Under the pieces are notes generated by a model, which was not told where the DNA came from, ran no database searches, and saw nothing but the letters and a program-made list of their open reading frames with translations. A DNA stretch of 36,475 nt from an uncultured Pelagibacteraceae bacterium (GTDB lineage: Bacteria > Pseudomonadota > Alphaproteobacteria > Pelagibacterales > Pelagibacteraceae). This document shows positions 5,635 through 33,439 of the stretch, one piece after another; within the stretch, counting starts at the first letter, position 1, and each line of letters opens with the position of its first letter. The stretch lies in the NCBI GenBank assembly GCA_902592985.1, contig CACJGR010000008.1:1-36475 (forward strand), written 5' to 3'. A program made the translations under genes and the position numbers.

Positions 5635-7959
5635 TTACGATCTAACTTTTGATTTTGTTGGATCGTAAAATGGAAAAGCGATGACTTTTGCTCCAATTCT
5701 TTTTTGATGACCATCAATTTTTCCAACTTCAACTTCTGTTCCTATTTCTGAATATTTTGTATCTATTCTACAAAGAGCTATATTTTTATTGAGAGTCTTT
5801 GATAACATTCCGCTAGTTATAACGCCAACTTGTCCTCTTCCAACATGAACTGTATTACCATTTGCAGCAGGTTCATGACCAATAAGTTCTAAACCAACTA
5901 ACTTTTTCTGAGGGTTTGCTTTTCTTTTTATTAATTCTGCTTTACCTATAAAATCATCTTCTTTTGTTTTAAGAGGTACGGTAAATCCTATTCCTGCTTC
6001 AAAAGGATCTGTTTTATCATCAAATTCGTATCCATAAAAAATTAATCCTGCTTCAATACGAACCATATCTAAGGCCTCCAAACCAAGAGGAGATATATTA
6101 AATTCTTTACCAGCTTCCCAAACTTTATCCCAAATAGTGCTGGCATCCTTTGGATGACACCAAATTTCATAACCTAATTCTCCTGTATAACCTGTTCTTG
6201 AAACAACAATAGGAATGCCTGTTACACTATCTATTCTTGCTATTGTTAATCTGAACCATTCAAGATTCTCGATAGATGGTTGGGTGTCAGGCGTCCATAC
6301 AAACTTTTGTAAAATTTTTCTACTATTTGGTCCTTGAACAGCAACATTGTGAATTTGATCAGTCGATGATTTTATCCAAACTTTAAAGTTTTTCTTTTTA
6401 GCTTGTTCCTTTAACCATTCGCCGCCGTATTCTTGACCGCCAACCCATCTAAAATTATCTTGCCCTAATTTCATTATTGTACCGTCATCAATCATACATC
6501 CGTTCTCGTAGCACATTGCTGTATAAGAAATTTGTCCAACTGATAATTTTTTTACATTACGAGTAAGGGTATATTGCATTAAATTTTCAGCATCTGGGCC
6601 TAAAATTTCAAATTTTCTTAAAGGGGAAAGGTCTGTTACGATCACACTTTCTCTACATGCAGCGTACTCTTTAATTGCTCCATATTTTGTATAATTGTTA
6701 GCTAACCAATATCCATTATAGTTTACAAAATTTTTTGTAAGACCAGATGTTTTTTTATGAAAACCGGTTTCTTGTGTTAGTTTTGGCTCTGAATCTGTGC
6801 TCACTCTAAAAGCTACTCCTTTTGAAATTTTTTTTTCTTTAGGGTAAGTTCTAACAAATATATCGGTAGGATTCCATCCATTTGCTGGATCGACATCACA
6901 AGGACAGGCTGAAGAAGCGCAAGTTAAATCTTTTAAAGCTCTAAACAATACATAGTCGCCAGGTCTTGACCAAGGTTCATCAAAAGAAGCTACATTATTA
7001 GCATCGATTGCAGTGTTAAAAAAAAGGTTAATTGCTGTCCAACCTTTTCTTGATTTAACATCATATTTTTTTAAAACACCATTAAAATTTTCTGAACAAT
7101 TAATATGACCCATATATCCCATATCCTCGTAATATTTTGCCGTGCATGCATAATTAAAAGTGTCATGCCTACCAACAGTATCTCTTATAACTTCTATTAC
7201 TGGATCATGCTCTGCATCAAAAAATTTTGAAAATAAACCTGGAGTAGGGTAGGCAGAACCCATGAAAGTGCGAGTTGCAGTAGGATCAATTAAACTTTCA
7301 ATTCCATCATTTAACTTGTGTGAATCAAAAGCTAGAAAATCTGAACATTGTCTTCCAGAGGTATCAATAATTTGAATGTATTCACCTGCTTTTACTTCAT
7401 AAGTTTCTGCAGTTCTTCTTTTAATAAATTTTTCATTTAGCGGATCATAAAGTGGCTCTGGTAATTCATATTGTTCTTCTGATGTTTCAAATTTAGATTT
7501 ATTTAAAAAAACTGTTAAATCTGTAGGAGGGTTCTGCTTATGCACATCCATTTGTTCTCCCGGCGCTGCAATCATAACTGTACATTTATCTTTTGATTGC
7601 AAAGTTATTTTTTCACCCATTACACAATCTTTATCAAATATTATTGATGATTTAGCTTTGTCTAAGTTAAATTTTTTGCGTTTAAATAATTTAGAAATTT
7701 TTTCATCTTGCGAAATTGTTTTTTTTGAAAAGTTAGCGTTAGAATTTTCTTTTAAATTTAATATAGATAAATCGCTTTGGCCTTTTAAATTAAAAACAAC
7801 TATTTCACATGTCTGTTTGCCTTCATCATTGATAATTTCTACTTTATCATCAGGAAAAACTTCTATTACAGACAAGCCACCACCTTTAACATAGTATCTT
7901 TCAACTCCAGGTGGTAAAGTTCTTAAACCAGGATTTTTTATGTCAAGACTTGTTTGCAT
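5635..7959 (-). CDS. tdm: Trimethylamine N-oxide demethylase (DUF1989 + GcvT fusion)
   Basis: This 774-aa protein has an N-terminal DUF1989-type region (roughly 1-380) and a C-terminal aminomethyltransferase (GcvT) region (roughly 400-774), the architecture of TMAO demethylase. Cys288, Cys352 and Cys354 (in 'INCSENF' and 'SSACPCD') have the same spacing as the three zinc-binding cysteines that I recall for Methylocella Tdm. The GcvT half contains 'SRTGYTGELGYEIW', 'EALDMVRIEAG' and 'DPFEAGIGFTV'. Tdm converts TMAO to dimethylamine plus formaldehyde, and its GcvT half is thought to bind tetrahydrofolate. It is divergent from tmoX, whose product should deliver TMAO, and co-directional with the MarR-like gene behind it. 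No Shine-Dalgarno is visible before this ATG. Confidence 0.93.
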   Translation of the reverse strand: MQTSLDIKNPGLRTLPPGVERYYVKGGGLSVIEVFPDDKVEIINDEGKQTCEIVVFNLKGQSDLSILNLKENSNANFSKKTISQDEKISKLFKRKKFNLDKAKSSIIFDKDCVMGEKITLQSKDKCTVMIAAPGEQMDVHKQNPPTDLTVFLNKSKFETSEEQYELPEPLYDPLNEKFIKRRTAETYEVKAGEYIQIIDTSGRQCSDFLAFDSHKLNDGIESLIDPTATRTFMGSAYPTPGLFSKFFDAEHDPVIEVIRDTVGRHDTFNYACTAKYYEDMGYMGHINCSENFNGVLKKYDVKSRKGWTAINLFFNTAIDANNVASFDEPWSRPGDYVLFRALKDLTCASSACPCDVDPANGWNPTDIFVRTYPKEKKISKGVAFRVSTDSEPKLTQETGFHKKTSGLTKNFVNYNGYWLANNYTKYGAIKEYAACRESVIVTDLSPLRKFEILGPDAENLMQYTLTRNVKKLSVGQISYTAMCYENGCMIDDGTIMKLGQDNFRWVGGQEYGGEWLKEQAKKKNFKVWIKSSTDQIHNVAVQGPNSRKILQKFVWTPDTQPSIENLEWFRLTIARIDSVTGIPIVVSRTGYTGELGYEIWCHPKDASTIWDKVWEAGKEFNISPLGLEALDMVRIEAGLIFYGYEFDDKTDPFEAGIGFTVPLKTKEDDFIGKAELIKRKANPQKKLVGLELIGHEPAANGNTVHVGRGQVGVITSGMLSKTLNKNIALCRIDTKYSEIGTEVEVGKIDGHQKRIGAKVIAFPFYDPTKSKVRS

Positions 7960-16380: not shown

Positions 16381-16539
16381 ATGAATACTAAAATTATAAA
16401 TATTGCTGGATGGATTTTATTTTTGATCTCTGCAATTGGTTTTATTATGTCTAGCCTTGGAAATTTTTGGGCTATGTTTGGAAGTCTTTTCTTTTTAGCC
16501 GGTTGTGTAGTTTTTTTGATACCTTATTTTTTTGATTGA
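16381..16539 (+). CDS. 52-aa small membrane protein
   Basis: This short open frame starts with ATG at the base after the gpsA stop and encodes 52 residues with two hydrophobic segments (about 6-23 and 32-48) separated by a short 'SSLGNFWAM' loop, ending 'FLIPYFFD'. The composition and perfect adjacency to gpsA suggest a real co-transcribed small membrane protein. It resembles nothing I can name. Its last 16 bp overlap the 3' end of the convergent tmm gene. Confidence 0.6.
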   Translation: MNTKIINIAGWILFLISAIGFIMSSLGNFWAMFGSLFFLAGCVVFLIPYFFD

Positions 16540-17864
16540 TTTAAAAAAGTTTTTGAAGAATCATCCATTGCGGAAGCCCATGGGGTATGATGAATTGGTG
16601 CAACAGACCCAGTAACCGGGGATGAAAAAGATTTGTTTCTATAAGTCATGATATCATCTACTTTATGATGTTCCCATTCTTTAAAATGTTTTCTAATTAA
16701 CTCAAAATCAATTTTGGGATAGTTAGATAAACTATGAAGTTCTTTAGTATATTCAGTTTGAAAGTCTATCATTTGATCAGGGTTTTCTAGTTTTTCCTCC
16801 ATTGCAACCCATTTACTTATATCTTTTTCTATTTCTGAATTATTTGGAAGTTTAATTTTACTCATTGTTACATCTCTTGCATACCAAGCCTGACAGTCAA
16901 ACATATTAAAAGTATGAAATTGATCTTGCATACCCAAGTAAAGTAATTTGTGATTATCTTGCCATACAACACCTTTATATAGTTTTGGTGGATACAATCT
17001 ATTTCTAGTTTTTAGTTTAAGATCCTCAGTTAAAAAAGGAAAATGATGAAGATAACCAGAACACAAAATTATTGCATCAGATTCTTGCTCATGGCCATCT
17101 TTGAATATTGCTTTATTTCCATCCAGTCTGTCTAAATAATGTACTTCTTTTACTCCACTAGGCCATTTAAATCCCATTGGGTTATGTCTGTAACCTATGG
17201 TTACACTTTTAGCTCCATACTTGTGACATTGAAGAGCAACATCTTCAGCCGAATAACTACTTCCTAAAACAATAACATTTTTGCCTCTGAACTCTTCAGC
17301 GTCTCTAAAATCATGTGAATGTAATATTCTTCCCGGAAAAGATTTCATTCCTGGATATTCTGGAATAAAAGGAACTGAAAAATGTCCTGTAGACACAACT
17401 ACATAATCAAAAATATCTTTTGTAAATTTATCATTTTTTTTATTGTGAGAAGTAACTTCAAAATTATTTTCTTTATAAACTACACTAGAAACACTAGTGT
17501 TAAATCTTACTTTATCTTTTAGATTACCTTTTTTTACTCTACCAACTATATAATCATATAAAACTTCTCTTGGTGGAAATGAAGGAATAGGATTTCCAAA
17601 ATGCTCATCAAATGAATAATCAGCAAATTCTAAACATTCTTTGGGACCATTGGACCATAGATATCTATACATACTGTTAGGAACAGGGTCACCATATTGA
17701 TCAGATCCAGTTCTCCAACTGTAATTCCACAATCCACCCCAATCTTCTTGTTTTTCAAAACAAACTATTTCAGGTATTTTTTCACCTTTTTTTTCAGCTT
17801 GCTCGAAGGCTCTTAACATTGAAAGACCACACGGTCCTGTTCCAATAATAGCTACTTTTGTCAT
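16524..17864 (-). CDS. tmm: Trimethylamine monooxygenase (flavin-containing monooxygenase)
   Basis: This 446-aa flavin monooxygenase has the FAD-binding 'GTGPCG' at residues 8-13, the FMO fingerprint FxGxxxHxxxF ('FPGRILHSHDF', 176-186) and the NADPH-binding 'LGSSYSAED' at 200-208. The N-terminal 'KVAIIGTGPCGLSMLRAFE' closely matches bacterial Tmm as I remember it. Tmm uses NADPH and O2 to oxidise trimethylamine to TMAO, and can also oxidise dimethylsulfide to DMSO. I chose the ATG at 17864 because GGAG lies 8 nt upstream and the FAD motif then sits at the usual distance; an in-frame TTG at 17888 would add 8 residues. Clustering with tdm and tmoXVW supports the substrate. Confidence 0.93.
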   Translation of the reverse strand: MTKVAIIGTGPCGLSMLRAFEQAEKKGEKIPEIVCFEKQEDWGGLWNYSWRTGSDQYGDPVPNSMYRYLWSNGPKECLEFADYSFDEHFGNPIPSFPPREVLYDYIVGRVKKGNLKDKVRFNTSVSSVVYKENNFEVTSHNKKNDKFTKDIFDYVVVSTGHFSVPFIPEYPGMKSFPGRILHSHDFRDAEEFRGKNVIVLGSSYSAEDVALQCHKYGAKSVTIGYRHNPMGFKWPSGVKEVHYLDRLDGNKAIFKDGHEQESDAIILCSGYLHHFPFLTEDLKLKTRNRLYPPKLYKGVVWQDNHKLLYLGMQDQFHTFNMFDCQAWYARDVTMSKIKLPNNSEIEKDISKWVAMEEKLENPDQMIDFQTEYTKELHSLSNYPKIDFELIRKHFKEWEHHKVDDIMTYRNKSFSSPVTGSVAPIHHTPWASAMDDSSKTFLNQSKK

Positions 17865-17901
17865 TGAATTTTCTCCACCTAAAAACAAATTTATAAATGT
17901 A

Positions 17902-21713: not shown

Positions 21714-22970
21714 ATGCAAAAGTATTCAGTATTTAGCCTAATTAAAAATGCCTTTAAAGGACATAAAGACTGGGAAGTAGCCTGGAAAGATCCAACTCCT
21801 AAAACAGAATATGATGTTATAATTATTGGTGGTGGAGGTCATGGCTTAGCTACTGCTTACTATTTAGCTAAAGAGCATAACATTACAAATGTTGCTATTG
21901 TTGAAAAGGGATGGATAGGAGGAGGAAATGTTGGAAGAAATACAACAATTCTTAGATCAAATTACATGCATGATCAAAATGGATTATTTTACGAACTAGG
22001 AATGGATTTATGGAGAAATATGAGCCAAGAATTAAATTTTAACGTAATGTATTCTCCAAGAGGAATAATCAACCTCGCGCATTCTGATGCACAAATGAAT
22101 GTCTACTCTAGAAGAGGAAATTCTATGAGGTTGAATGGAATTGATGCAGTGCTCTTAGGAAGAGAAGAAGTAAAAAAAATAGTTCCAATGTTAGATTTTT
22201 CTGAAAATGTAAGATTTCCAATATTTGGTGGTTTAATGCAACCGAGCGGTGGAACTGCTAGACATGATGCTGTTGCTTGGGGTTACGCACGCCAAGCGGA
22301 CTCAATGGGTGTAGATATTATTCAACACTGCGAAGTAACAGGCTTTGATGTAATTAATGGAAAGATAAAAGGAATAAAAACATCAAGAGGCAACATCAAA
22401 GCAAAAAAAATAGGTTTATGCGTAGCAGGTAGCACATCAATACTTGCCGAAATGTTAAACATGACACTACCCATTGAAACTCATTTGTTACAAGCATGTG
22501 TATCAGAACCAATTAAACCTATATTAGATCATGTGGTTACTTTCGGTGCTGGACATTTTTATTGTAGTCAATCCGATAAAGGAGAAATGGTAATGGGCGG
22601 AGATTTAGATGGGTATAATAGTTATGCACAAAGAGGAAATTTACCTACATTACAACATGTTTTAACTGAAGGAATTGCAATGTTTCCATTTCTTAGCAAA
22701 TTAAAAATGCTAAGAACGTGGGGTGGAATTATGGACATGTCAATGGACGGATCTCCAATTATCGATAAAACACATATTGAAGGTTTATATTTAAATTGCG
22801 GTTGGTGCTATGGAGGTTTTAAAGCAACTCCAGCATCTGGATGGACTTTTGCGCATACAATAGCACAAGATAAAGTTCATAAATTAAATGCAGGATACAG
22901 CTTAAATAGATTTCATACTGGTCATTTGATTGATGAAAAAGGTCTTGGCACAAAAACTTGGATTTCATAA
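21714..22970 (+). CDS. soxB: Sarcosine oxidase beta subunit
   Basis: This 418-aa flavoprotein of the DAO family has the dinucleotide-binding 'IIIGGGGHGLATAYYLA' (36-52) and His184 in 'TARHDAVAWG', corresponding to the covalent FMN attachment site of heterotetrameric sarcosine oxidase. The N-terminal 'MQKYSVFSLIKNAF' is also typical of SoxB. It oxidises the N-methyl group of sarcosine; formaldehyde equivalents pass to folate in SoxA. It is the first gene of soxB-D-A-G, divergent from fhs. TATAAA at 21700-21705 could be a -10 giving a nearly leaderless mRNA, and no Shine-Dalgarno is present. N-methylglutamate dehydrogenase is homologous and cannot be excluded. Confidence 0.9.
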   Translation: MQKYSVFSLIKNAFKGHKDWEVAWKDPTPKTEYDVIIIGGGGHGLATAYYLAKEHNITNVAIVEKGWIGGGNVGRNTTILRSNYMHDQNGLFYELGMDLWRNMSQELNFNVMYSPRGIINLAHSDAQMNVYSRRGNSMRLNGIDAVLLGREEVKKIVPMLDFSENVRFPIFGGLMQPSGGTARHDAVAWGYARQADSMGVDIIQHCEVTGFDVINGKIKGIKTSRGNIKAKKIGLCVAGSTSILAEMLNMTLPIETHLLQACVSEPIKPILDHVVTFGAGHFYCSQSDKGEMVMGGDLDGYNSYAQRGNLPTLQHVLTEGIAMFPFLSKLKMLRTWGGIMDMSMDGSPIIDKTHIEGLYLNCGWCYGGFKATPASGWTFAHTIAQDKVHKLNAGYSLNRFHTGHLIDEKGLGTKTWIS

Positions 22971-23237
22971 ATGCTACATATTAAATGTCCTTACTGTGGA
23001 ATGAGATCACAAAATGAATTTGCATATGGAGGTGATGCAAGCGTCACAAGACCAGAGTTAAATAAAGAAATTTTAGATTCCGAGTGGGATAGTTTTGTTT
23101 ACCTAAGAAAAAGTCTAAAAGGAAAACATTTAGAACTTTGGCATCATATTTCAGGTTGTAGACAATGGTTTAAAGTTCAAAGGGATACTTCAACTCATGA
23201 AATATTTAAAACATTAAAACCTGGTGAAAGTATTTAA
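22971..23237 (+). CDS. soxD: Sarcosine oxidase delta subunit
   Basis: This 88-aa protein matches the small zinc-binding subunit of heterotetrameric sarcosine oxidase. Cys6 and Cys9 ('CPYC') pair with His59 and Cys63 in 'WHHISGCRQWF' to bind zinc, and 'EFAYGGDA' is characteristic. It is structural within the complex. The ATG directly follows the soxB stop, and soxA starts 2 bp after its end. Confidence 0.93.
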   Translation: MLHIKCPYCGMRSQNEFAYGGDASVTRPELNKEILDSEWDSFVYLRKSLKGKHLELWHHISGCRQWFKVQRDTSTHEIFKTLKPGESI

Positions 23238-23239
23238 TT

Positions 23240-26236
23240 ATGTCACAAGATTTTAGATTAAATAATGTTGGTTTAATTAATAGAGATAAAAAAATTTCGT
23301 TTAAATTTAATGGAAAGAGTTATTTTGGTTATAAAGGTGATACGCTTGCGTCAGCGCTAATAGCAAATGGAGTTCATCTTATTGGAAGAAGTTTTAAATA
23401 TCATCGACCAAGAGGTTTTTTTGGAGCTGGTGTAGATGAACCATATGCTATAGTTCAATTGTATAGAAATAATGAAACTGACCCCAATGTTCGTGCTACA
23501 GAACAAGAACTTTTTGAAGGATTAGAAGCTAAAAGTGTTAATTGTTGGCCAAATGTAAATTTTGATATAGGAGCAATAAATAATTTTTTAAATAAATTTT
23601 TTCCGGCAGGTTTTTATTATAAAACTTTTATGTGGCCAAAAAGTTTTTGGTACAAAGTTTATGAGCCTTTTATTAGAAAAGCAGCAGGTTTTGGAGTAGC
23701 ATCGATAAAACATGATAAAGAACGGTATGAGCATAAATACGAATATTGTGATTTATTGATTACAGGTTCAGGTCCATCAGGTTTAGCAAGTGCATATGCT
23801 GCAGCAAAAAATGGAGCGAGAGTAATATTAGCAGAAGACAAACCACGATTTGGTGGAAGTTTATTAACCAGTGAAGTGAATATTGGAAATCAAAACGGAA
23901 AAGAGTGGGCAGAAAAAATTATAACTGAGCTTAAAGAAATGCCCAATGTTATAGTAAAAAATAGATCACAGGTCTTCGGTTACTATGATCACAATATGCT
24001 GGTAATGTCAGAACGAGTAAACGATCATTTGCCAAAATCAAAAAAATATAGTCCTAAACAAAGACTTTGGTACATTAGAGCCAAAGAAGTTGTGATTTCT
24101 TCAGGCTCAATAGAAAGACCATTGGTATTCGGGAACAATGATACGCCAGGAGTAGTGTTATCTTCCGCAGCTAAAGAATATTTAAAAGTTTATGGAGTTT
24201 TGGTTGGAAGAAACCCACTTATATTTACAAATAATGACAGTGGTTACGAAACTGCTATTGAGTTTAAAAAACATGGAATTTGGCCCATAGTTTTAGACAC
24301 AAGAAGTAATCCTGATTCAGAAATTATTGATGAAGCTAAAAGAATGGGAATTAATATAAAATTTTCATATGTAATTATAGCTGCAAAAGGATATAAAAAA
24401 GTAAAATCAGCTGAAATTGCAAAAATATCTCAAGATAAAAAAGATTTAGGAAAAATTGAAAACGTTAACTGTGACTGTATATGTGTTTCTGGTTTTTGGA
24501 CTCCAACAATACATTTGGCTTCTCAATCAGGAAATAAAACAAAATTTAATAAAGAAATTGATGCTTTTGTTCCTGGTCAATCTAAACAAGAAGAAACAAC
24601 GGTTGGGTCAGCAAATGGAGTATTTACTTTAGAAGAAACTTTAAAAACATCTTTTGAAATTGGCCATCAATTATCGAAAAAAATAACTAAAAATGATAAT
24701 AAAGTTTCTGTTCCAACTGTTGTTGAAAAAAAATCAACAGTACACGATAAATTTTGGTGCGTTCCTCTTCCTGAAGGAAAAAAATATAAAAGGTTTTTAG
24801 ATTTTCAAAATGATGTTGCTGTTACTGATGTAGAACTTGCACTAAGAGAAGGATATAGATCAATTGAGCATGTAAAGAGATATACAACATTAGGTATGGC
24901 AACTGATCAAGGTAAAACAAGTAATCTTAATGGGTTGCAACTTGTTTCAAATATTGAAAACAAAATAGTTCCTGAAGTAGGCCATACAACTTTTAGACCA
25001 CCCTACACTCCAGTTACGATTGGAGCAATTGTCGGAAGGGAAATTGGAAAACATTCTAAGCCTACAAGAAAATCATCAATGCATTTATGGCATGAAAAAA
25101 ATAATGCTGTTTTTGTGGATGCAGGAGTTTGGTTAAGACCAAGATACTATAAACAAGGCAATGAAACATTGTTTGAAGCTTCAAAAAGAGAAGCGACTAA
25201 TGTTAGAAAAAATGTTGGCGTTTGTGATGTTACCACTTTAGGAAAAATAGATATTAAAGGACCTGATGTAGCCGAATTTTTAAATAGAATTTATACAAAT
25301 GCTTGGCTTAAACTACCAGTTGGAAAAGCAAGATATGGAGTAATGCTAAGAGAAGATGGAATTGTAATGGACGATGGCACCACAACTAGAATTTCAGAAA
25401 ATCATTATCATATGACAACAACTACTGCACAGGCTGCAAACGTTTTATCTCACCTAGAATATTATTTACAAGTAGTTTGGCCAAAACTAAACGTTAATGT
25501 AGTTTCCACTACAGAGCAATGGGCTGGTGCAGCAATTGCAGGACCAAAATCAAGAGATGTATTGCAAAAATTATTTCCAGACATAAATGTTTCAAACGAA
25601 GGTTTGCCATTCATGGGATATGTTGAGGGCAATTTATTTGGCGTTTATGCAAGGATTTTCAGAATTTCTTTTTCTGGAGAGCTTGCCTACGAAGTTAATG
25701 TTGAATCGAATAATGGAAATTTTATGTGGGAAAAAATAATGGAAATTGGAAAAGAATTTGAAATTCAACCATATGGAACAGAAGCATTATCTACATTAAG
25801 AATTGAAATGGGACATGTAGCGGGTTCAGAATTAGATGGAAGAACTATTCCCTACGATAATTCATTAGAAGGACTAGTCAGTAAAAAGAAAGATTTTATT
25901 GGAAAAAGATCTTTAAGTAGACTAGCATTTGTTGCAGAGGATAGACAGAAAGTAGTAGGTGTAGTTCCACTCGATAAAAAAACAAGCATCCCTGAAGGAT
26001 CTCATTTGGTTAAAGATGCAAAAGCAAAGCTACCAAATCCAAAATTAGGTCATGTTTCAGCCTCATGTTGGAGTGTAGAATATAATAACCCATTTTCGCT
26101 CGCTATTCTTCATGATGGAAAAAATATGATTGGACAAAAATTATATGCTTTATCGCCGTTAAAAAATCAATCAATACCAGTTGAAATCGTTTCATCACAT
26201 TATGTTGATCCAAAAGGAGAAAGAGTAAGATCATGA
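23240..26236 (+). CDS. soxA: Sarcosine oxidase alpha subunit
   Basis: The 998-aa protein has the three-part layout of SoxA. The N-terminal ferredoxin-like domain ends in 'RGFFGAGVDEP' (58-68) and lacks iron-sulfur cysteines, as expected. A NAD/FAD-binding domain contains 'ITGSGPSGLASAY' (174-186). A C-terminal GcvT domain (about 620-998) has 'RATNVRKNVGVCDVTTLGKI'-type start and 'SFSGELAYEVNV'. The GcvT part couples methyl-group oxidation to tetrahydrofolate, yielding 5,10-methylene-THF. Its end overlaps soxG by 4 bp (ATGA). The homologous N-methylglutamate dehydrogenase large subunit is the only serious alternative. Confidence 0.93.
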   Translation: MSQDFRLNNVGLINRDKKISFKFNGKSYFGYKGDTLASALIANGVHLIGRSFKYHRPRGFFGAGVDEPYAIVQLYRNNETDPNVRATEQELFEGLEAKSVNCWPNVNFDIGAINNFLNKFFPAGFYYKTFMWPKSFWYKVYEPFIRKAAGFGVASIKHDKERYEHKYEYCDLLITGSGPSGLASAYAAAKNGARVILAEDKPRFGGSLLTSEVNIGNQNGKEWAEKIITELKEMPNVIVKNRSQVFGYYDHNMLVMSERVNDHLPKSKKYSPKQRLWYIRAKEVVISSGSIERPLVFGNNDTPGVVLSSAAKEYLKVYGVLVGRNPLIFTNNDSGYETAIEFKKHGIWPIVLDTRSNPDSEIIDEAKRMGINIKFSYVIIAAKGYKKVKSAEIAKISQDKKDLGKIENVNCDCICVSGFWTPTIHLASQSGNKTKFNKEIDAFVPGQSKQEETTVGSANGVFTLEETLKTSFEIGHQLSKKITKNDNKVSVPTVVEKKSTVHDKFWCVPLPEGKKYKRFLDFQNDVAVTDVELALREGYRSIEHVKRYTTLGMATDQGKTSNLNGLQLVSNIENKIVPEVGHTTFRPPYTPVTIGAIVGREIGKHSKPTRKSSMHLWHEKNNAVFVDAGVWLRPRYYKQGNETLFEASKREATNVRKNVGVCDVTTLGKIDIKGPDVAEFLNRIYTNAWLKLPVGKARYGVMLREDGIVMDDGTTTRISENHYHMTTTTAQAANVLSHLEYYLQVVWPKLNVNVVSTTEQWAGAAIAGPKSRDVLQKLFPDINVSNEGLPFMGYVEGNLFGVYARIFRISFSGELAYEVNVESNNGNFMWEKIMEIGKEFEIQPYGTEALSTLRIEMGHVAGSELDGRTIPYDNSLEGLVSKKKDFIGKRSLSRLAFVAEDRQKVVGVVPLDKKTSIPEGSHLVKDAKAKLPNPKLGHVSASCWSVEYNNPFSLAILHDGKNMIGQKLYALSPLKNQSIPVEIVSSHYVDPKGERVRS

Positions 26237-26820
26237 TGTCAATATCGGCATTACAGAACGTACATGAAAAAGGACTTTTTGGAGATCATGAAAATAAAAA
26301 TGATGACAGTTTAATAAAAGTTTCAGAGTGTAAAAACTTAGTAATTTTTCAAATAGTACAGTATAAAAATTCTTCTATTTTGATAAAAGATATCAATATT
26401 GATGGACTTAATTTAAAAGATGAAGCATTGAGCATAAGCTGCAATAACGATACTAGAGTTTTATGGTGTGGACCAAAAAATTGGCTTTTGGTTTCCTCTA
26501 AAAAAGAATTATTAAAATCTATCTACACATCATTTAAAGATAGCGATTTTGCAATTACAGACCTGTCTCACTCAAGGGCTATAATTGAATTAGAAGGAGA
26601 TAATTCAAAAGAAATATTAAAAAAAGGATGTCCATTCAACTTTAATGAATTGAAAAAAAATAATTGCGTAAATTCTGTATTTAATGGAATAACAATTACA
26701 ATTGATATGATTGAAGACAATCCTAATAAAATAAGATTGTTTGCTCTTAGAAGTTTTGGAGAGTCCTTGCATCACTCTGTCACAGATGCTTGTTTAGAAT
26801 TTGGTTATAAAGCCCTTTAA
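26233..26820 (+). CDS. soxG: Sarcosine oxidase gamma subunit
   Basis: This 195-aa protein is the least conserved subunit of the complex and was identified by position and by its weak GcvT-like fold signature: 'VLWCGPKNWLLVSSKKE', 'TDLSHSRAIIELEGDNSKEILKKGCPFN' and 'FALRSFGESLHHSVTDACLEFG'. It closes the soxBDAG operon with a 4-bp overlap with soxA. Two adjacent ATG codons (26233 and 26236) could serve as start. No terminator hairpin is obvious in the 79 bp that follow. Confidence 0.88.
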   Translation: MMSISALQNVHEKGLFGDHENKNDDSLIKVSECKNLVIFQIVQYKNSSILIKDINIDGLNLKDEALSISCNNDTRVLWCGPKNWLLVSSKKELLKSIYTSFKDSDFAITDLSHSRAIIELEGDNSKEILKKGCPFNFNELKKNNCVNSVFNGITITIDMIEDNPNKIRLFALRSFGESLHHSVTDACLEFGYKAL

Positions 26821-30034: not shown

Positions 30035-31003
30035 ATGAACTTCAAAATTGATAATTTACAGTACTGCAATTGGTCAAGAGAAATCTTTAAAATTAATAGA
30101 GAAGCAGGATTAGATGCTGTTCATGTTACTATTGTTTATCATGAAGATTTTGATGAGCTCCAAAATGTTATAAGTTCATGGAATAAACATTTTAAAGAAA
30201 ACTCAGATTTAATTTTTTTAGGAAATAATTTTAAAGATATTGAAAAAGCGAAATTAGAAAATAAAACAGCAATTTTTTTTGGTTTTCAAAATTGTTCACC
30301 TATTGAAGACAATATTGCTTTAATAGAAAAAGTTCATGAACAAGGTTGTAGGTTTATGCAACTTACTTATAACAATCAATCATTATTAGCGACTGGTTGT
30401 TATGAAAAAAATGATAGTGGAGTTACTAATTTTGGACGAGAGGTAATTAAAGAGATGAATAGAGTAGGGGTAGTAATAGACATGTCTCATTCAGCAGAAA
30501 AAAGCACGCTAGATGCAATTGAAATAAGTGAAAAACCAATTGCAATCACACATGCAAATCCGTCTTTTTGGTATGCAGCTAAAAGAAATAAATCAAATGA
30601 TTTACTAAAAACTCTAGCTAATAGCGGTGGAATGCTCGGTCTTTCCTTGTATGCTCATCATTTAAAAGATAGTACAAATTGCACTCTTCGAAGTTTTTGT
30701 GAAATGGCTGCTAAAACTGCTGAAATTATTGGAACTAAAAATATTGGTATTGGATCTGACCTATGTCTAAATCAACCAGACAGTGTTGTTGAGTGGATGA
30801 GAAATGGAACGTGGACAAAAGTTAAAAAATATGGGGAGGGTTCAAAAAATAAACCAGGTTTTCCAAAACAACCAGATTGGTTTTTAGATGCAAGAGGTTT
30901 TAAAAATTTAGATATGGGTTTAAAAAAGGTTGGCTTTAATGAAAATGAAGTAAATGGAATTTTAGGAAATAATTGGTACCACTTCTATAAAGGGATAAAT
31001 TAA
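30035..31003 (+). CDS. M19 (membrane dipeptidase) homologue lacking canonical metal ligands
   Basis: The 322-aa protein is homologous to renal/membrane dipeptidases. 'VGVVIDMSHSAEKSTLDAI' (His152), 'KPIAITHANPSF' (His173) and 'IGIGSDLC' (Asp242) have the same 21- and 69-residue spacings as human dipeptidase 1 His198, His219 and Asp288. The expected HxD at the N-terminus is replaced: 'KIDNLQYCNW' stands where IDGHND is usual. The bridging Glu is Gln85 in 'FFGFQNCSPIED'. A normal binuclear zinc site therefore looks unlikely, so dipeptidase activity is doubtful. There is no signal peptide, so it is cytoplasmic. It is first in a four-gene operon; the next ATG overlaps its stop by 1 bp. Homologues occur near dimethylglycine-catabolism genes in Pseudomonas, from memory. 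Confidence 0.83.
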   Translation: MNFKIDNLQYCNWSREIFKINREAGLDAVHVTIVYHEDFDELQNVISSWNKHFKENSDLIFLGNNFKDIEKAKLENKTAIFFGFQNCSPIEDNIALIEKVHEQGCRFMQLTYNNQSLLATGCYEKNDSGVTNFGREVIKEMNRVGVVIDMSHSAEKSTLDAIEISEKPIAITHANPSFWYAAKRNKSNDLLKTLANSGGMLGLSLYAHHLKDSTNCTLRSFCEMAAKTAEIIGTKNIGIGSDLCLNQPDSVVEWMRNGTWTKVKKYGEGSKNKPGFPKQPDWFLDARGFKNLDMGLKKVGFNENEVNGILGNNWYHFYKGIN

Positions 31004-32664
31004 TGAAAGTAAAATTAAGAAACCCAAATATTATTATGAAGTTATCAAGATTAGGATCATTTCATCAATCAAAACTATCCTTTTTAAGAAGCTTTTTAAA
31101 AGAATTTAGAGACTGGGAATATAAAAGAGATTTATTTGAATTAGATGAATTTGGTCATGGAACAGCCGTTTATTCATTTAAAAAAAATACTAGAGTTTAT
31201 TCTTTAATTTGTTTTGCTAATGAGCTTAATGAAAATGAAAGGTCTGATAGAGTTATTGCAACTAAATGGGATGCGGCATTTGCTCTTCATGATGGTGTTC
31301 CTACAAAACAAGATATAAATAGATTGAGAAATGAAGTTCCTAGACAAGAAGTGGGAAGATTATCTTATAAAGAATTAACTTTATCTAGAGCTAATAAATC
31401 AGTCCGAGCATTTAATCATGTGGTTGAAAGTTTAAGCCAAGGCAAACAACCAGATATCGAATTGCTATCTAAAATTGGTTATTTATATAGAACAACAGCA
31501 GTTTATGGATCAGGTAAATTTGGTTTAGCTGATCGATTTAGAATTAAACATCGAGAAGAAATATATGGACCTTTCAGATTAGAGATGATGTTAGTTTATT
31601 TAGTCAGACAATTTACTTTTGATCAAGTTAATCATATGGCAAAACACAAAAATCCAAGAAAAGCAGCATCTTTAGATTTAGAAATTTGTAGAAACCTTGG
31701 AATTGGTAATTCTACTGGCTTGGGCATGGCACCATTTATAGTTAATCATCCAACTCTTTTAAATAACTGGATTTTTGCAAGAGAAACTGCATTAAAAAAT
31801 ATAAGAGAAATTAAAAATGTTAAAACAGAAGATAGCGATCTATTTAAATTATGTTTGAAAAAGTCTATTAAAAATATTACTTCTTGGAGCACTGATAGCA
31901 ATTATCAACAAAAAAAAATTCGATCTTTACTAAATGATTTAAAAAAATTTATTGAATTTATTGAAAATAATTTTGATTTTTCAAAAGAATTTCCTTTTAA
32001 TGAAGTTTATTTATGGGTTGAAAAAAATCTAGAAGAGGAATGTATCGAATATATTGTTTCAATGATGATGGAACCATATGATGACATCGTAAATCCATTG
32101 ATTAATGAAATGAGTTCAGAAGAAGAAAAATTTTTTAATATCCCAACTGAAAGAACCATTCTTGATTTAAAAAAGATTTTAGAAGAAAAATATGTAGAAA
32201 TATTAAAAATAGATTTTTCGAAAAAAGAAAATAATCAAAACTTTTGGTTTATTTCAAAAAATAAAGAAGAGCCTCGAATGGCTGATAGATTTAAAGAAAA
32301 TGGATCAGATTTAGAACAACCTTTAGCAATTGCAAGAGATATTAAAAAATTATATGAAACTTTATCAGTATCAAAAAATAGCTCTACAATTGATAAATTT
32401 TTAGTAAACAATAACCATTTAAGACATGTTGTTAGAAGAGCATTTATAGTCGAAAAATTTCCATATTCAGAAATTCAAGATAATACCATTGGTCAATCTA
32501 TTATTCCTATTGATATGTTAAGATTAAAATTATCATTTTTTGGAGCATTAAAATTTGACCCAAGATCAGATAAATGGTTAAGAATATGTATGTTTCAAGG
32601 AGCACCATTGCCAAATGAGTTAAAAAATTATGATGCACACTGGGTTTATAACTCGATAAATTAA
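31003..32664 (+). CDS. 553-aa conserved protein of unknown function
   Basis: I know no function for this protein. It is cytoplasmic by appearance: no signal peptide and no transmembrane segment. Notable segments are 'KLSRLGSFHQSKLSFLRSFL' at the start, 'VIATKWDAAFALHDGVPT', 'RTTAVYGSGKFGLADR', 'LGIGNSTGLGMAPFIVNHPTLLNNW' (a glycine-rich turn that could bind a ligand), and a C-terminal 'LKFDPRSDKWLRICMFQGAP'. These look like family-conserved motifs rather than low-complexity filler, and I recall similar unnamed proteins in other alphaproteobacteria beside DUF3726 genes. It overlaps the M19-like gene by 1 bp and abuts the DUF3726 gene with no gap, so the products probably function together. Confidence 0.8.
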   Translation: MKVKLRNPNIIMKLSRLGSFHQSKLSFLRSFLKEFRDWEYKRDLFELDEFGHGTAVYSFKKNTRVYSLICFANELNENERSDRVIATKWDAAFALHDGVPTKQDINRLRNEVPRQEVGRLSYKELTLSRANKSVRAFNHVVESLSQGKQPDIELLSKIGYLYRTTAVYGSGKFGLADRFRIKHREEIYGPFRLEMMLVYLVRQFTFDQVNHMAKHKNPRKAASLDLEICRNLGIGNSTGLGMAPFIVNHPTLLNNWIFARETALKNIREIKNVKTEDSDLFKLCLKKSIKNITSWSTDSNYQQKKIRSLLNDLKKFIEFIENNFDFSKEFPFNEVYLWVEKNLEEECIEYIVSMMMEPYDDIVNPLINEMSSEEEKFFNIPTERTILDLKKILEEKYVEILKIDFSKKENNQNFWFISKNKEEPRMADRFKENGSDLEQPLAIARDIKKLYETLSVSKNSSTIDKFLVNNNHLRHVVRRAFIVEKFPYSEIQDNTIGQSIIPIDMLRLKLSFFGALKFDPRSDKWLRICMFQGAPLPNELKNYDAHWVYNSIN

Positions 32665-33276
32665 ATGAGATCTCTAAGCGAAATTGATACGACATCTAAA
32701 AGAGCAAGTAGAGCTGCTGGATATCCGTGGGGTATATCAGAAGAAGTTGGAAAAAACATTAGAATGTTAGAAATGTTTGGTTTGCCAGGAATTAAAAATT
32801 TAAATGATTTTTTAAAAAAAAAAAAAGAATATCAATTTGAAAATTTAAATCTAATAAACTTAAATAATAAAACAGTTAAATCTCATTTTTGTCCAATAAT
32901 TGCGGGCATAAGCTTTTTGGACCAAATCAAATCTTTAGAAAATTTGAATGAGATAAAGTTTGAAAAAATAGGCTATCCTTTACTTTTTTTACCATTTGTG
33001 AGTCGAGCATCAGAAGTTATTGGAAAAAGATTGTTTTTAAAGTTAGATAATAGAGAATTTTTATTAAACTTTAATAATTATATTTATTCAAATTTTATAA
33101 AAAATAATATTATTGAGGTAGCAAATGTTGTTTCAATCCAATTTTTAAATAATACGGACTCATTTTTTGAAAAAGAGTGGAATGAACTTTATAAATTATC
33201 AGAAGATACATTTGTTGAAGAAACAGATAGTTTGAAAAAAAGTGGAGCAGGCGCAGGGTTAACAGATAATGACTAA
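32665..33276 (+). CDS. DUF3726-type protein
   Basis: This 203-aa protein has the features I associate with DUF3726: an N-terminal 'SLSEIDTTSKRASRAAGYPWGISEEVGKNIRMLE' helix region and the C-terminal 'GAGAGLTDND'. The middle is poorly conserved and Lys/Asn-rich, including a Lys-rich stretch near residues 50-55. It has no signal peptide and no recognisable catalytic motif. It begins at the base after the 553-aa gene ends, and its last 8 bp overlap the zinc-ribbon gene. The conserved Gly-Ala tail at the very C-terminus suggests a binding or assembly role, which is inference. Confidence 0.68.
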   Translation: MRSLSEIDTTSKRASRAAGYPWGISEEVGKNIRMLEMFGLPGIKNLNDFLKKKKEYQFENLNLINLNNKTVKSHFCPIIAGISFLDQIKSLENLNEIKFEKIGYPLLFLPFVSRASEVIGKRLFLKLDNREFLLNFNNYIYSNFIKNNIIEVANVVSIQFLNNTDSFFEKEWNELYKLSEDTFVEETDSLKKSGAGAGLTDND

Positions 33277-33439
33277 AAAATTTGAAGATAAAAATTTAAA
33301 AAAAAATGATTTAGATGATTTTAATAATTTTTGTGAAGAATGCAAAAAAGAAGACGAAAGCGTTTCACAAAATTTAATTTTAAGAGGATTTAAAATCTGT
33401 GAGTCTTGCAGAACCTCAAAAACTGTATTTCCGATTTAA
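33269..33439 (+). CDS. 56-aa zinc-ribbon protein
   Basis: This small gene overlaps the DUF3726 gene by 8 bp. It encodes 56 residues with two CxxC pairs, Cys22/Cys25 ('FCEECKK') and Cys44/Cys47 ('ICESCRTSK'), separated by 18 residues: a treble-clef or zinc-ribbon pattern. The N-terminal 20 residues are highly charged. As fourth and last gene of the 30035-33439 operon it could be a small metal-binding or adaptor subunit. Its stop overlaps the end of the convergent YIP1-like gene by 4 bp. Confidence 0.7.
   Translation: MTKKFEDKNLKKNDLDDFNNFCEECKKEDESVSQNLILRGFKICESCRTSKTVFPI

Follow-up and report, generated by a model that had tools for sequence, protein, structure and literature searches.

What do four tightly joined genes do in a streamlined SAR11 genome, and do all four belong together? 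The question is raised by contig CACJGR010000008.1 of an uncultured Pelagibacteraceae bacterium (assembly GCA_902592985.1), analysed here over its whole stretch of 36,475 nucleotides (the window). Between positions 30035 and 33439 its forward strand encodes a homologue of M19 dipeptidases, a protein of 553 amino acids (aa) called P553 below, a DUF3726 protein and a small zinc-ribbon-like protein. Comparison with related loci showed that the core is the trio of M19, P553 and DUF3726 genes, which is conserved and co-inherited, and that the zinc-ribbon gene is an accessory specific to the Pelagibacter lineage and not part of this core. We infer, with a probability of about 0.58, that the trio supplies the core enzymes of a betaine-catabolic operon, which is trimmed in Pelagibacter, with homarine (N-methylpicolinate) as the most likely substrate.

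Linkage and distribution of the trio

The gene of the M19 homologue (322 aa, 30035..31003) overlaps that of P553 (31003..32664) by 1 bp, the gene of the DUF3726 protein (203 aa, 32665..33276) follows without a gap, and the zinc-ribbon-like open reading frame (ORF; 56 aa, 33269..33439, with a CxxC...CxxC pattern) overlaps the latter by 8 bp. This is the layout, coordinates included, that an earlier reading of the sequence alone (the sequence-only reading) had described. Linkage counts were drawn from 77 named SAR11-type loci. An M19 gene lies at most 40 bp upstream of P553 in all 69 loci with more than 1.5 kb of upstream sequence, and DUF3726 was found in all 74 with more than 0.8 kb downstream; the four-gene arrangement is more than chance. 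SoxA is encoded upstream in 52 of the 57 loci with at least 9 kb of upstream sequence. P553 itself is patchy, being present in 40 of 61 genomes, the window's own included, and in 11 of the 18 among them with completeness of 90% or more and contamination of no more than 5%. Across ten relatives from the SAR11 order its identity is 66-86%.

The zinc-ribbon ORF occurs in 64 of 73 named SAR11-type loci, mostly with the identical 8-bp overlap, and possesses a conserved C-terminal motif of the SKTIFPI type. Its product has no match over the Pfam cut-off, and a profile built from it gave one match over 100 other loci, in the window's own genus (locus L213). The four-gene unit proposed from the sequence alone is thus reduced to three genes plus a lineage-specific addition. 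Locus L213, from a complete genome of that genus (G012), also encodes a Rieske oxygenase (L213:8555-9763) about 3.6 kb downstream of P553; it is 45% identical to a counterpart close to a P553 operon of Pseudomonas.

Beyond SAR11, P553 is present in 57 of 387 alphaproteobacterial genomes, in 38 of 397 genomes of a phylum sample (nine of these outside Alphaproteobacteria), and in 168 plasmid records, including those of Phaeobacter, Sinorhizobium, Aminobacter, Vibrio and a Natrinema plasmid. The search of viral contigs revealed no relative of P553. The Pfam DUF3726 model matches 46 of the 387 alphaproteobacterial genomes, and all 46 also carry P553 (hypergeometric 1.5e-49, relatedness of the genomes ignored). 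Eleven P553 genomes have no Pfam DUF3726 match; a wider DUF3726 profile detects the gene beside P553 wherever flanks were fetched. An early DUF3726-like profile was dropped, as it matched P553 itself, probably via a fused ORF. Such a fusion is encoded at L219:9049-11655 in a class-sample genome (G106), where a single ORF of 868 aa holds P553 (residues 6-571) and DUF3726 (542-854).

Flanking sequences covered 52 of the 57 class genomes (all except G000, G122, G133, G235 and G311) and 20 of the 38 phylum-sample genomes. After removal of L169, which is on the same replicon as L117, and of L210-L213, which are relatives of the window rather than members of the class sample, 53 class loci were compared. 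DUF3726 lies within 300 bp of P553 on the same strand in 50 of these, and within 1 kb in the other three (L220, L222 and L223). An M19 gene was found within 3.5 kb in 45 of the 53, on the opposite strand in L185 and L186 and shortened in L183. All 20 phylum-sample loci possess both DUF3726 and M19. P553 and DUF3726 are a near-obligate pair, and the sequence-only reading, which had pointed to similar trios in other alphaproteobacteria, finds support in this neighbourhood comparison. The shortened copy in L183 (9191-9562) encodes 123 aa with the middle missing, directly adjoins P553, and is a decayed or reduced M19.

Features of the three core proteins

The M19 homologue of the window matches Pfam PF01244 (Peptidase_M19) over residues 17-316 (E=3e-69), and its nearest structure is 2i5g (E=1.2e-56). 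The canonical binuclear zinc ligands of the family, which we take from human DPEP1 to be the HxD motif, a bridging Glu and two His, are incomplete. In the alignment with DPEP1, Q85 takes the place of the bridging E125, and 64 of 64 homologues have Gln there; DNLQY stands in the N-terminal HxD region, and H152 of DPEP1 is replaced by Y112. H152, H173 and D242 (H198, H219 and D288 of DPEP1) are retained in 63 of the 64. The aligned residues of 2i5g exhibit the identical pattern of losses. The metal site, considered dismantled in the sequence-only reading, is thus half dismantled: one site is lost, but the His pair and the Asp of the other are kept, and one metal could still be bound.

P553 has no match over the Pfam cut-off, neither the window protein nor a 36-member alignment giving a trusted relative. 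Twenty-four positions are invariant across the 36 divergent members; these are rich in Arg and Gly and include no Cys or His, and His249 is near-invariant. A relationship to V-ATPase subunit C was considered and rejected: the best PDB-sequence match (E=0.0014) covers the helical middle only, with coiled-coil chains ranked below it, and was not taken as homology. Fold searches of the PDB with the P553 model gave no match with E<=0.001, and a highest Z of 4.1. That model has only moderate quality scores (predicted local distance difference test, pLDDT, 70; predicted TM-score, pTM, 0.73) and its most conserved loops are the least certain, so the lack of a fold match is no proof of a new fold.

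The DUF3726 protein matches Pfam PF12525 with 89 bits (cut-off 22.1; E=1.9e-25), and its model is confident (pLDDT 88.7). The fifteen top structural entries are all of the malate/lactate/ureidoglycolate dehydrogenase (Ldh_2) type, with Z of 8.8-11.0 and the next row at 3.9. Foldseek also ranks this type first (probability 0.99), with a best E of 0.011, none reaching 0.001. The match by hhalign to the Ldh proteins of the operons is weak (probability 21%, E=0.001) but agrees in its N-terminal register; M37-F38-G39 stands opposite S47-H48-G49 of the Ldh set, and the Ser-His is not conserved in 26 DUF3726 proteins. The DUF3726 protein is therefore predicted, from its model, to adopt the fold of a shortened Ldh_2 dehydrogenase that lacks the Ser-His motif. 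The hhalign comparison of DUF3726 with P553 gave nothing, and the literature search for DUF3726 found no paper.

The C-terminal tail of the DUF3726 protein (GAGAGLTDND type) ranks with its best-conserved segments, yet has the lowest model confidence, and several conserved P553 loops are likewise of low confidence in the P553 model. The conserved loops of P553 span residues 164-182, 235-248, 413-439 and 491-522. These segments may be parts that become ordered in a complex. Tentatively, the two proteins would then form an obligate complex that represents a new class of enzyme, has a fold so far absent from the PDB and opens an N-methylpyridinium ring, in which DUF3726 is an Ldh_2 partner stripped of catalysis whose floppy tail reaches into P553, and the M19 protein is a refitted deformylase. 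This extended proposal is, taken as a whole, doubtful.

Gene neighbourhood and a proposed homarine route

In other genomes the trio is part of larger operons. The order in Ruegeria TM1040 is soxBDAG, a GlxA-type regulator, LysR, an aldehyde dehydrogenase (ALDH), M19, a BCCT transporter, P553, DUF3726 and Ldh; Phaeobacter porticola and Tritonibacter have LysR through Ldh in the same order. Sulfitobacter possesses LysR-ALDH-M19-BCCT-P553-DUF3726 without Ldh, and P. inhibens DSM 17395 LysR-ALDH-M19-P553-DUF3726 with neither BCCT nor Ldh. Shinella, Pararhizobium and Aminobacter MDW-2 harbour ALDH-M19-P553-DUF3726-Ldh, followed by a ProXWV-type transporter. Sarcosine oxidase genes are near the P553 operon in TM1040, Phaeobacter porticola and Shinella. 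The full set LysR-ALDH-M19-BCCT-P553-DUF3726 is found in roseobacters and in genomes from outside the class; in the window only M19-P553-DUF3726 are adjacent. Pelagibacter retains the trio, and the remaining operon genes are lost or moved. No ALDH orthologue was assigned in SAR11, where the TM1040 ALDH finds generic ALDHs in 17 of 17 genomes, with or without P553, at no more than 36% identity.

In sixteen of the 53 class loci an ALDH with 45% or more identity to the TM1040 enzyme is encoded within 6 kb of P553; twenty-three have an Ldh-family gene and sixteen a BCCT, ProX or Pot-type transporter nearby. The 20 phylum-sample loci include an ALDH in 12, a transporter in 11 and Ldh in 4. Eight loci came from the nine genomes outside the class, and all eight contain ALDH, M19, BCCT, P553 and DUF3726; LysR and RidA are present in seven, the eighth being close to a contig end. 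A role with N-methylated compounds, at which the sequence-only reading had hinted, is well founded on these neighbours, namely betaine-type transporters, ALDH and sometimes sarcosine oxidase.

The companion genes also give clues to the substrate. Betaine-type transporters mark it as a zwitterionic nitrogen compound. Three of the five P553-linked ALDHs examined score best as alpha-ketoglutaric-semialdehyde or 2,5-dioxovalerate dehydrogenase, all below the cut-off, and such an enzyme fits a C5 semialdehyde. RidA and Ldh-family enzymes act on enamines and imines, and their genes fit intermediates of this kind. Sarcosine-oxidase-type enzymes take off N-methyl groups.

A homarine operon, homABCDER, has reportedly been described by Ferrer-Gonzalez et al. 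(2026, Nat Microbiol), is said to be found in SAR11 and to yield N-methylglutamate. LysR-ALDH-M19-BCCT-P553-DUF3726 may be this hom set, a presumption that goes by the number of genes, six like the letters in that name. PMC13390433 names N-methylglutamate dehydrogenase (Mgd) as a participant in homarine catabolism and cites the homarine pathway as published in 2026. The system is probably the core of that published pathway in SAR11, with the novelty remaining in P553 and DUF3726; the trio is conserved, as the sequence-only reading had suggested, but its label of unknown function is probably outdated. TgnA and TgnB were judged in PMC8269262 (2021) unlikely to act on homarine, so homarine needs another ring opener; R. 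pomeroyi DSS-3 grew less well on homarine than on trigonelline (same paper).

The substrate, an N-methylated cyclic betaine and most likely homarine, would be degraded via N-methylglutamate. P553 and DUF3726 would open the N-methylpyridinium ring at the C5-C6 bond, giving an N-formyl-N-methylamino C5 semialdehyde, which the ALDH would oxidise. The M19 protein, as a mononuclear or metal-poor amidohydrolase, would then release formate, and an Ldh-family reductase would turn the N-methyl-imine into N-methylglutamate. Finally, a sarcosine-oxidase-type enzyme (Sox or Mgd) would demethylate N-methylglutamate to glutamate and a folate-bound C1 unit. By our own arithmetic the atoms balance up to N-methylglutamate: C7H7NO2 + O2 + 2H, + H2O - 2H, + H2O - HCOOH, and + 2H give C6H11NO4. 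P553 and DUF3726 are assigned the ring opening because they are the only pair without another obvious job.

Several observations weigh against this assignment. Homarine as the substrate is deduced from gene context. P553 has no visible cofactor motif, with neither an oxygenase nor a flavin signature, so its ring-opening step is a guess and looks unexplained. No M19 gene lies within 3.5 kb in 8 of the 53 class loci, besides the shortened copy. The Sox link to P553 is not general: a SoxB with 40% or more identity to the TM1040 protein is encoded within about 10 kb in two of the 53 class loci and in none of the 20 phylum loci. RidA is nearby in one class locus only. For the other two of the five ALDHs (from Natrinema and a SAR11-order genome), betaine-aldehyde dehydrogenase is the best-scoring model, also below the cut-off. 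In the window no ALDH, transporter, LysR or Ldh gene adjoins the trio, and the ALDHs of its genome (assembly 83% complete) reach only 30 and 32% identity to the TM1040 enzyme. Finally, a divergent operon of IclR, P553, DUF3726-like, M19 and a polyamine-type ABC transporter exists in S. meliloti pSymB, Bosea and Aminobacter aminovorans, among others (loci L113:9223-17438, L112, L118 and L217), with P553 proteins 23-26% identical to that of the window, and the P553 family probably serves more than one substrate. The literature search for S. meliloti SMb2038x returned a single passing mention, with no substrate.

Such diversity raises the alternative that the operon degrades another cyclic or acyclic betaine (for example hydroxyproline betaine, proline betaine, trigonelline or carnitine) along the same general lines. 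The glycine-betaine-type transporters would suit it, as would the ALDHs near ketoglutaric-semialdehyde dehydrogenase, which also ends hydroxyproline catabolism, and rhizobial hosts encounter plant betaines. A DapA-family gene in the Natrinema locus can be counted in its favour, together with the Rieske oxygenase and mandelate-racemase-type genes in the vicinity of the Pseudomonas MPC6 P553 operon. However, additional LysR genes separate P553/M19 from the latter in MPC6, and a Rieske gene is near P553 in only three of the 53 class loci and none of the 20 phylum loci. The judgement on TgnA/TgnB cited above also speaks for a separate opener for homarine, and another betaine is an unlikely substrate overall. 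A further ALDH beside the MPC6 Rieske gene (L110:305-1747), outside the five and not M19-adjacent, scores best as betaine-aldehyde dehydrogenase. The Natrinema locus, on a haloarchaeal plasmid (L109:7035-15285), comprises ALDH, P553, DUF3726-like and BCCT genes, without M19 in the 21.6-kb stretch.

Alternatively, the substrate of the trio could be an acyclic amino acid with an N-methyl or N-acyl group, or a small amide; M19 would then be the main enzyme, with P553-DUF3726 as helpers and no ring opening. The sarcosine oxidase nearby in the window agrees with this. The sequence-only reading had placed an M19 homologue near dimethylglycine catabolism in Pseudomonas. PMC12093977 does place a predicted dipeptidase gene (pepD) beside the dimethylglycine genes of Vibrio natriegens and P. 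aeruginosa. The product of pepD is presumably an M19 protein. Nonetheless, the constant pair is P553-DUF3726, and it is M19 that is missing nearby in some class loci; the Ldh-family genes point to imines, and M19 has lost half its metal site. This reading is quite improbable. That the Pelagibacter copy is a decayed remnant or re-used for another role, as its patchy presence and missing operon neighbours might suggest, is very improbable, given that M19 and DUF3726 are fully linked wherever the contig allows, P553 is well conserved among the SAR11-order relatives, and the frames are open.

The genome from which the contig comes is of the Ca. Pelagibacter type (its closest named relatives bear that name) and is assembled as 1.14 Mb in 44 contigs. 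Upstream of M19 the window encodes purE and purK (which we take from their sequence to be these genes), a metallo-beta-lactamase-fold gene and, on the forward strand, soxB, soxD (22971-23237), soxA and soxG (21714..26820), of the heterotetrameric sarcosine-oxidase family, a possible later N-demethylation step. Farther upstream are genes for trimethylamine N-oxide (TMAO) demethylase (5635-7959) and trimethylamine monooxygenase (16524-17888), both above the cut-off of NCBIfam equivalog models. Downstream, DmdA/GcvT-like and MTHFR-like genes lie on the opposite strand.

Comparison with known systems

Few bacteria in the ocean are as abundant as SAR11. In particles of the surface ocean, homarine ranks with the most abundant osmolytes measured (PMC8269247 and PMC8269262). 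If the assignment is true, the window shows a streamlined SAR11 genome keeping only the core of a pathway. P553 is the best candidate for a chemically hard step, the opening of a methylated pyridinium ring, and the P553-DUF3726 pair provides a sharp marker gene for metagenomes.

Compared with peptidase family M19 (renal dipeptidase), the window protein shares a near full-length match and the residue losses of 2i5g, but the bridging Glu is Gln and HxD is absent, leaving no canonical binuclear site. The DUF3726 model shares the fold of Ldh_2 dehydrogenases, such as ureidoglycolate dehydrogenase and delta1-piperideine-2-carboxylate reductase (1wtj), over about 160 residues, which cover about 275 of the target; about 110 residues are missing, the Ser-His motif is not conserved, and the protein has no Pfam Ldh_2 match. 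With the trigonelline pathway TgnABCD of Acinetobacter the proposed route presumably shares oxidative pyridinium opening, a semialdehyde dehydrogenase and deformylation. It differs in that P553 is unrelated to known families and that TgnA and TgnB, as named in PMC8269262, are not annotated in the named P553 loci that were inspected, although no search aimed at them was made. The participation of N-methylglutamate dehydrogenase in homarine catabolism (PMC13390433) is a link to the homarine operon; compared with the presumed hom set, the Pelagibacter core lacks the ALDH, the transporter and the regulator, and adds a zinc-ribbon ORF.

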